Origin: an uncultured cyanobacterium
Lineage (GTDB): Bacteria > Cyanobacteriota > Cyanobacteriia > PCC-6307 > Cyanobiaceae
Direction: 5' to 3'
Assembly (NCBI GenBank): GCA_903917565.1
Contig: CAIXBB010000001.1
Span: 186,001 to 250,000, forward strand
Length of the DNA: 64,000 bases
This document shows, piece after piece, positions 62,229-64,000 of this stretch. A program made the translations under genes and the position numbers. The notes under the pieces are model-generated. The model saw only the letters and a list, made by a program, of their open reading frames with translations, was not told the DNA's origin and ran no database searches. Each line of letters begins with the position of its first letter. Within the stretch, counting starts at the first letter, position 1.

Positions 62229-62275
62229 GCCTGCCTGGTGAGCCCGCGATGATGCGGGTCCCCAGCCGTTTTTGC

Positions 62276-62923
62276 ATGGCCTTCACCCCTGAGCAGCTCG
62301 CCGGCGCCCTGCGCTGGCGCTACGCCACCAAGAGTTTCCAGGCCGGAGCCCGAATCCCGTCAGCCACCTGGTCGGCCCTGGAGGACGCCCTGGTGCAAAG
62401 CCCTTCCAGCTACGGACTGCAGCCCTGGAAGTTTCTGGTGATCGAGGACCCATCCCTGCGCACGACCCTGAAACCCCACTCCTGGGGCCAATCCCAGATC
62501 ACGGACTGCTCCCACCTGGTGGTCTTTCTGGCCCGCCGCAGGATCGAGGAGGCCGATCTGGATCGGCTGATCCAGGCCACGGCCGAAGCCAGGGGGCTGA
62601 ACCCCGAGCAGCTGGCCCCCTATCGGGGAATGATGGCCAACGATCTGATCCAAGGTCCCCGCAGCGCGGTGATCGATCGCTGGGCCAGCAACCAGGTGTA
62701 CATCGCCCTCGGCACCTTTCTGACGGCGGCGGCGTTGCTGTCCGTCGACACCTGCCCCATCGAGGGCTTTTCTCCGGCCGACTACGACAGGATTCTCAAC
62801 CTGGAAACAAGCCTCTACCGGAGCTGCGTGGTCTGTGCAGCGGGCTACCGCGCTCCCGAGGACCGCTATGCAGCTCTCGCGAAGGTGCGCTATTCGGCAG
62901 CGGATCTGATCGAAACCCGCTGA
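62276..62923 (+). CDS. nitroreductase family NAD(P)H oxidoreductase
   Basis: 215-residue FMN enzyme. RWRYATKSFQAGARIP binds FMN phosphate; SPSSYGLQPWKFLVIED and CPIEGFSPADYDRIL are further family blocks. ATG 62276 is preferred; an in-frame ATG lies at 62249. A 14-bp tandem duplication straddles its stop codon. Substrate unknown (quinones, nitro-compounds or similar). Confidence 0.9.
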   Translation: MAFTPEQLAGALRWRYATKSFQAGARIPSATWSALEDALVQSPSSYGLQPWKFLVIEDPSLRTTLKPHSWGQSQITDCSHLVVFLARRRIEEADLDRLIQATAEARGLNPEQLAPYRGMMANDLIQGPRSAVIDRWASNQVYIALGTFLTAAALLSVDTCPIEGFSPADYDRILNLETSLYRSCVVCAAGYRAPEDRYAALAKVRYSAADLIETR

Positions 62924-62930: not shown

Positions 62931-62941
62931 GGAAAGGGGGT

Positions 62942-63117
62942 GGACCGCCGTGCCGTCTTGCCCCAGTGTTCGACCTGGATGAACCAGGTGGGGAGTCAGG
63001 GGCGGGGCTTCGTTTCCGGCCGTGAGGCCGGTATACGTTGCCGTCGCTGAAGACTCCCCGCGTCGAAAGGGAGTCAGATCAGAAAACTGTGAAAGGCAGT
63101 CACCAACACAGCAGTCC
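62942..63117 (-). ncRNA. ssrS: candidate 6S RNA downstream of purK
   Basis: About 176 nt on the minus strand. The ends pair over 14 bp (63117-63104 with 62955-62942). Several of these pairs are G-U on the minus strand and become A-C mismatches on the plus strand, which fixes the direction. Further in, GACTCCC/GGGAGTC-type segments can pair in two ways and a CCGGCC-TCAC-GGCCGG hairpin exists at 63031-63016. A long rod of this size with its ends paired fits 6S RNA, which in marine Synechococcus and Prochlorococcus lies next to purK. Not tested by a covariance model. Confidence 0.6.
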
Positions 63118-63126
63118 GATCCAATC

Positions 63127-64000
63127 CTAAGTGGGTTGGGGGGGCAGCGGCCAGATGGCCCGCACCTCCGCCAGCCGGCGCTGCTTGTCCAGCTCTCGCT
63201 CGGCCTCCGAGCGGCCCTCGAGCAGCAGGGTGAGATGGCCGAGCTTGCGGCCAGCCCCCCCCCCCCTGCTTGCCATACCAGTGCAGATGGGCTCCGGGGA
63301 GCGCCTCAAGGGCCCGGCGCCGTTCCAGCTGGTCGACATCGCCGCCCTCCGGTGCGAGCAGATTCACCATCAAGGCGCCGGGCACCACCGCTTCGGTGGC
63401 GCCCATCGGCAGCCCGGCGACGATGCGCACCTGCTGGGAGAACTGGCTGGTGCGGCAGGCCTCGATGGTCAGGTGGCCGGAATTGTGGGTGCGGGGGGCC
63501 AGCTCGTTGACCTGCAGACCCGCGGGACCGTAGAAGAACTCGATCGACAGCACACCCACGTAGTCGAGGGCGGTGAGCAGGGAGGCGGCCACGTTGCGGG
63601 CGAACACCTCGACCCGGTGATCCACCGGCGCGGGAAAGAGCACCCAGTCGCAGACACGGCAGTGCTGGTGGGTCTGCACCAGTGGGTAGCAGGACACCAT
63701 GCCGTGCTGGTCGCGGCAGGCCACCAGCGCCAGCTCCTGATCGAATCTCACCAGCTCCTCGAGGATCCAGTCCTCGGGGTCGACCGAGGCGAGCAGCCCC
63801 TCCAGCGCCGCCAGATCGGCCAGGGGAATCGTGCCCCGGCCGTCGTAGCCCCCACGGCTGGCCTTGGCCATCATCGGAAAATCAAAGCCCTCAGGGAGGC
63901 GGGGAGTGGCTGGCGACAGCATGGAGCGCGCCATGCCAAGCGGCATGGAGGCCTGTCCCGCGTCCGCTGGAGTGGGGGCGGCGGCCTGGAGGACATCGGC
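63127..64000 (-). pseudogene. purK: 5-(carboxyamino)imidazole ribonucleotide synthase, frameshifted in a C run and cut at 5' end
   Basis: ATP-grasp enzyme of purine synthesis. PMMAKASRGGYDGRGT, ILEELVRFDQELALV, SIEFFYGPAGLQVNELAPRTHNSGHLTIEACRTSQF and LHWYGKQGG are PurK motifs. At 63255-63266 a run of 12 C breaks the frame: upstream code continues out of frame to 63074, while the true C-terminus (GRKLGHLTLLLEG, ending at 63127) is in the next frame. Removing one C restores it. Sequencing error in a homopolymer is more likely than a real mutation because purK is needed without purine supply. Confidence 0.85.

Follow-up and report, generated by a model that had tools for sequence, protein, structure and literature searches.

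RNAs of the 6S family mimic promoters and are released through pRNA synthesis (PMC5721685; PMC8876501), and a central-bubble-collapse helix has been described for the 6S RNAs of B. subtilis and Aquifex (PMC8876501). In picocyanobacteria, Axmann et al. (2005) placed the small RNA Yfr7 downstream of purK and equated it with 6Sa RNA and 6S RNA; it is 174–175 nt long in WH 8102, MIT 9313 and SS120 and was detected on Northern blots in 11 strains (PMC1242208). In Synechocystis 6803, knock-out of the 6S RNA gives a phenotype, and what the RNA does in vivo may not be simple sequestration (PMC5721685). Here, we describe the region between purK and a nitroreductase gene in a 64,000-nt stretch of DNA from an uncultured cyanobacterium (hereafter, the window). 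The DNA comes from a picocyanobacterium of freshwater type, close to Cyanobium/Synechococcus; judged by the neighbouring protein, its nearest named relatives are Synechococcus sp. CS-1332, Synechococcus sp. CCY 0621, Aphanothece saxicola and Cyanobium sp. Cruz-8D1.

Identity and conservation of the 6S RNA gene

A reading made from the letters of the window alone (the sequence-only reading) had held that the gap downstream of purK is not empty and had proposed a 6S RNA there, with an Rfam covariance scan as a check. The gap does contain such a gene (Yfr7/6Sa/ssaA), lying between the purK stop codon and that of the convergent nitroreductase-family gene (62249-62923, plus strand; stop codon ending at 62923). 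The scan (cmscan) bore out the proposed identity, matching RF00013 on the minus strand at 62938-63120 with 86.6 bits, far over the gathering cut-off of 46.4 (E = 1e-15), in a complete alignment that covered all of model positions 1-187. The mature RNA probably extends over about 62942-63117, and its predicted length of 176 nt fits the ~175–185 nt expected of Yfr7/ssaA RNA. In common with RF00013 (6S/SsrS), the RNA combines a full-length match over the curated cut-off with a long closing stem that joins the 5′ and 3′ ends (14 bp, covarying), a central bubble and an apical arm, these last two appearing in the consensus fold and the arm covarying. Directly downstream of purK and on the same strand, the gene also has the position of Yfr7/ssaA, and it is the only 6S RNA copy in this 99.9% complete genome. 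Relative to Yfr7/6Sa RNA/SsaA of picocyanobacteria and Synechocystis (PMC1242208, PMC5721685), the purK position, strand, length (174–176 nt), fold and single copy are the same; the strain differs, and there is no difference that matters. The locus is an ordinary, already known cyanobacterial 6S RNA gene in its known place after purK, for which the identity, structure, conservation, position and −10 box have been obtained here. We assign a probability of about 0.97 to the explanation as a whole, namely a single ssaA/yfr7 gene that has its own −10 promoter and whose RNA would mimic a promoter for RNA polymerase and be released by pRNA synthesis.

Searches recovered the gene from 58 of 60 relatives and, across the order, from 148 of 150 genomes, in one copy per genome, so that conservation at the locus is not limited to purK coding sequence but includes the RNA after its stop codon. 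Two nearly complete drafts from the family (G081 and G185) gave no 6S match even at E = 10, perhaps reflecting assembly gaps. Across 80 loci, purK was found upstream of the 6S gene on the same strand in 71, including every picocyanobacterial locus except L009, where the contig stops about 200 bases upstream of the gene. The purK–6S order is general in picocyanobacteria; the sequence-only reading had named this neighbourhood correctly, and it is published (PMC1242208).

Promoter and flanking genes

A −10 box, TAGGAT (63124-63129, minus strand), overlaps the purK stop codon, TAG (63127-63129 in the true frame), which forms the first three bases of the hexamer as read from 63129 to 63124. Of 64 picocyanobacteria, 60 have a TANNNT hexamer 9–10 bases ahead of the model start, and most of the sequence upstream of it is poorly conserved. 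From the 6-base spacing, transcription is predicted to start near 63117, where the closing stem begins. No −35 element turned up in a consensus promoter scan, which requires one and for that reason returned nothing. The 6S gene probably has its own promoter, with the −10 box at the purK stop codon, and read-through from purK is a possible additional source of the RNA.

The 3′ part of purK occupies 63127-64000 on the minus strand, where, in the sequence as assembled, a run of 12 C (63255-63266; 12 G on the coding strand) shifts the last part of the gene out of frame, while an intact purK tail runs on in another frame to 63127. The C runs in purK of relatives are shorter and in frame, and purK of Cyanobium sp. 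CACIAM 14 (L049) is broken at the same glycine-rich place. The frame change may be a sequencing error or slippage.

Secondary structure and alternative explanations

The closing stem is formed by 63117-63104 (GGACUGCUGUGUUG) and 62955-62942 (CGGCACGGCGGUCC), giving 14 bp, four of them G-U, over a span of 176 nt, exactly the segment and end stem that had been read from the sequence. In an alignment of 65 picocyanobacterial sequences, 98.5% of its cells were paired and 9 of the 14 pairs showed two-sided changes; none of 500 shuffles was as good and no slid register came close. The four G-U pairs would turn into C-A on the opposite strand, and the claim that the stem works only on the minus strand is accordingly upheld. 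Free-energy folding was rejected as a strand test, as both strands score about alike (z = −4.57 for the minus strand, with 0 of 200 shuffles as stable, and z = −4.34 for the plus strand); it is the G-U pairs, the covariance model and the −10 box, rather than folding energy, that decide for the minus strand. A 5′ hairpin in the minimum-energy fold of 191 nt was also set aside, being only 79% paired in relatives and weakly supported.

The apical arm pairs GGGGAGUC (63052-63059, 5′ strand) with GACUCCCC (62990-62997, 3′ strand) and is 93.8% paired across the 65 sequences, with covariation in six of its eight pairs. The three internal pieces named by the sequence-only reading are all present, although one was shifted by a base: 62989-62996 reads ACUCCCCA, whereas the piece that actually pairs is 62990-62997. 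That reading had also seen two exclusive pairings, and GGGGAGUC can indeed pair with either neighbour, the alternative partner being GACUCCC (63069-63075), but covariation does not support a switch between them. The free minimum-energy fold contains the local GACUCCC:GGGGAGUC hairpin, and its pairing across relatives reaches 88.7%. Its two-sided changes, however, are confined to two of seven pairs, a level matched by 149 of 500 shuffles, its changes are mostly one-sided and one pair is broken in 27 of the 65 sequences, unlike the apical arm with which it would compete and which does covary. A regulatory switch between the two is therefore unlikely. The hairpin itself may exist in solution, since the free fold containing it lies 0.6 kcal/mol below the canonical arm state; the same fold counts against the preferred explanation, by this small amount only, in that the minimum-energy structure is non-canonical unless the canonical arm is enforced.

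Two further explanations concern the identity of the conserved feature. Since both strands fold strongly, and since the 6S gene follows so closely behind purK that read-through is possible, the likeness to 6S RNA might be one of fold only, the element being a different structured RNA or a terminator-like part of the purK transcript; a full-length 6S covariance match that includes conserved sequence, a conserved −10 box of its own and the failure to find an intrinsic terminator at the locus make this very improbable. A protein-coding origin is scarcely credible: the plus strand does carry a 162-aa open frame at 63022-63510, and similar frames were once annotated opposite Yfr7 in the marine strains WH 8102 and MIT 9313 (PMC1242208), but changes in the stem track base pairs and not codons, and expression of the marine frames went undetected where the opposite-strand RNA gave strong signals (PMC1242208).

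Putative pRNA template and refolding

By analogy with the 6S family, the RNA from this locus would form a rod of closing stem, central bubble and apical arm, resembling an open promoter, to which RNA polymerase with the housekeeping sigma factor would bind. Once nucleotides are available again, the 5′ side of the bubble would serve the polymerase as template for a short pRNA, whose synthesis would open helix P2 and release the 6S RNA. The likely pRNA template is the nearly invariant UUUUCUGAUCUGAC (63086-63073, minus strand), assigned by alignment with the template region of the E. coli model. This stretch also supplies the 5′ strand of P2; the 3′ strand, AGGUC (62972-62976), pairs with 63076-63080 (GAUCU) and is invariant in the 65 sequences.

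The refolding step on release may involve other strands than those of the GACUCCC hairpin. When the pRNA template was masked in silico, P2 opened and the RNA refolded to a helix between UUCGAC (63062-63067) and GUCGAA (62969-62974) together with a 3′ central-bubble hairpin, CUGG...CCAG (62975-62987, invariant in the 65 sequences); RNAalifold on the alignment likewise placed both. The core UUCGAC:GUCGAA pairs form in 63–64 of the 65 sequences, and the bases of both elements are nearly invariant, so covariation cannot test these pairings. In distant cyanobacteria, a collapse helix of 6–8 bp occurs in some loci (L005, L011-L014), while others do no better than shuffles, and because of this mixed support the collapse helix is left tentative. 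With this reservation, P2 giving way to UUCGAC:GUCGAA and CUGG:CCAG may be a better-conserved alternative than the GACUCCC hairpin. The short CUGG:CCAG hairpin and the possible collapse helix resemble the 6S RNAs of B. subtilis and Aquifex (PMC8876501), whereas no long 3′-bubble hairpin like that of E. coli is evident in this RNA.

The 3′ end of the 6S RNA gene as a probable integration site

The genes for tRNA and tmRNA are classic integration targets. Comparison of the window with relatives suggests that the 3′ end of the 6S RNA gene is used in a similar way, as nine relatives carry tyrosine-integrase elements of about 6–40 kb directly downstream of it. For example, in a close relative matched to Aphanothece saxicola (G012), 22 kb separate the nitroreductase gene from the 6S gene (G012:C11:379735-401855; L161, L162), with a complete 6S on the purK side, 45 bp of its 3′ end perfectly repeated on the nitroreductase side and two tyrosine recombinases just inside. 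The stretch matching this 45-bp repeat in the window (62932-62978, minus strand) is unoccupied. The same arrangement was found in G098:C14 (L168) and G342:C1 (L169); their integrases share 39% identity. When 300 family genomes were searched with the G098 integrase, 12 homologues turned up in 11 genomes, and nine of the homologues lie 4–40 kb downstream of the 6S gene on the opposite strand (G012, G098, G342, G109, G158, G260, G188, G154 and G191; further loci L186-L193), in genomes spanning eight genera. In eight of these nine, verified direct repeats place a second copy of the 6S end past the integrase, and in G260 the contig ends just past the integrase. None of the other integrases (those of G107 and G076 and the second of G098) adjoins the 6S gene, and neither a 6S-like repeat nor a tRNA was found near them.

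Two of the elements encode a single-subunit phage-type RNA polymerase (PF00940; L168:6246-8678 and L169:7787-10222), the two proteins being 39% identical to each other. The G012 element encodes a match to the PADLOC PD-Lambda-1 defence protein (L161:7180-8655) and one to a type I restriction subunit (C-terminal, 307 aa; L161:11804-12727). A viral source of the attachment site was also considered: four viral-contig matches were taken as chance, because the phage genes look unrelated (two examined) and one match falls inside the frame of a 720-aa phage gene, and a second pattern gave none.

We consider it likely, from these comparisons, that tyrosine-integrase elements of one family repeatedly use the 3′ end of the 6S gene for attachment, much as others use tRNA and tmRNA genes, that insertion restores the 6S gene, that two of the elements carry a phage-type RNA polymerase and that the window holds the empty site. 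A literature search, mainly of openly accessible papers, returned nothing on 6S as an integration target; this does not establish novelty. Of the findings here, the attachment-site pattern is the one that may be new.

As for the 6S gene, the window adds a clean orthologue that confirms a known rule, its promoter being located at the purK stop codon; the integration pattern is of greater importance. If this pattern holds across picocyanobacteria, including Prochlorococcus, it would add a third small-RNA gene to the tRNA and tmRNA targets, and the gene of an RNA that restrains the host RNA polymerase would be a standard landing site for mobile DNA. Mobile cargo could then be sought at a defined place, and some of that cargo would bring its own RNA polymerase.
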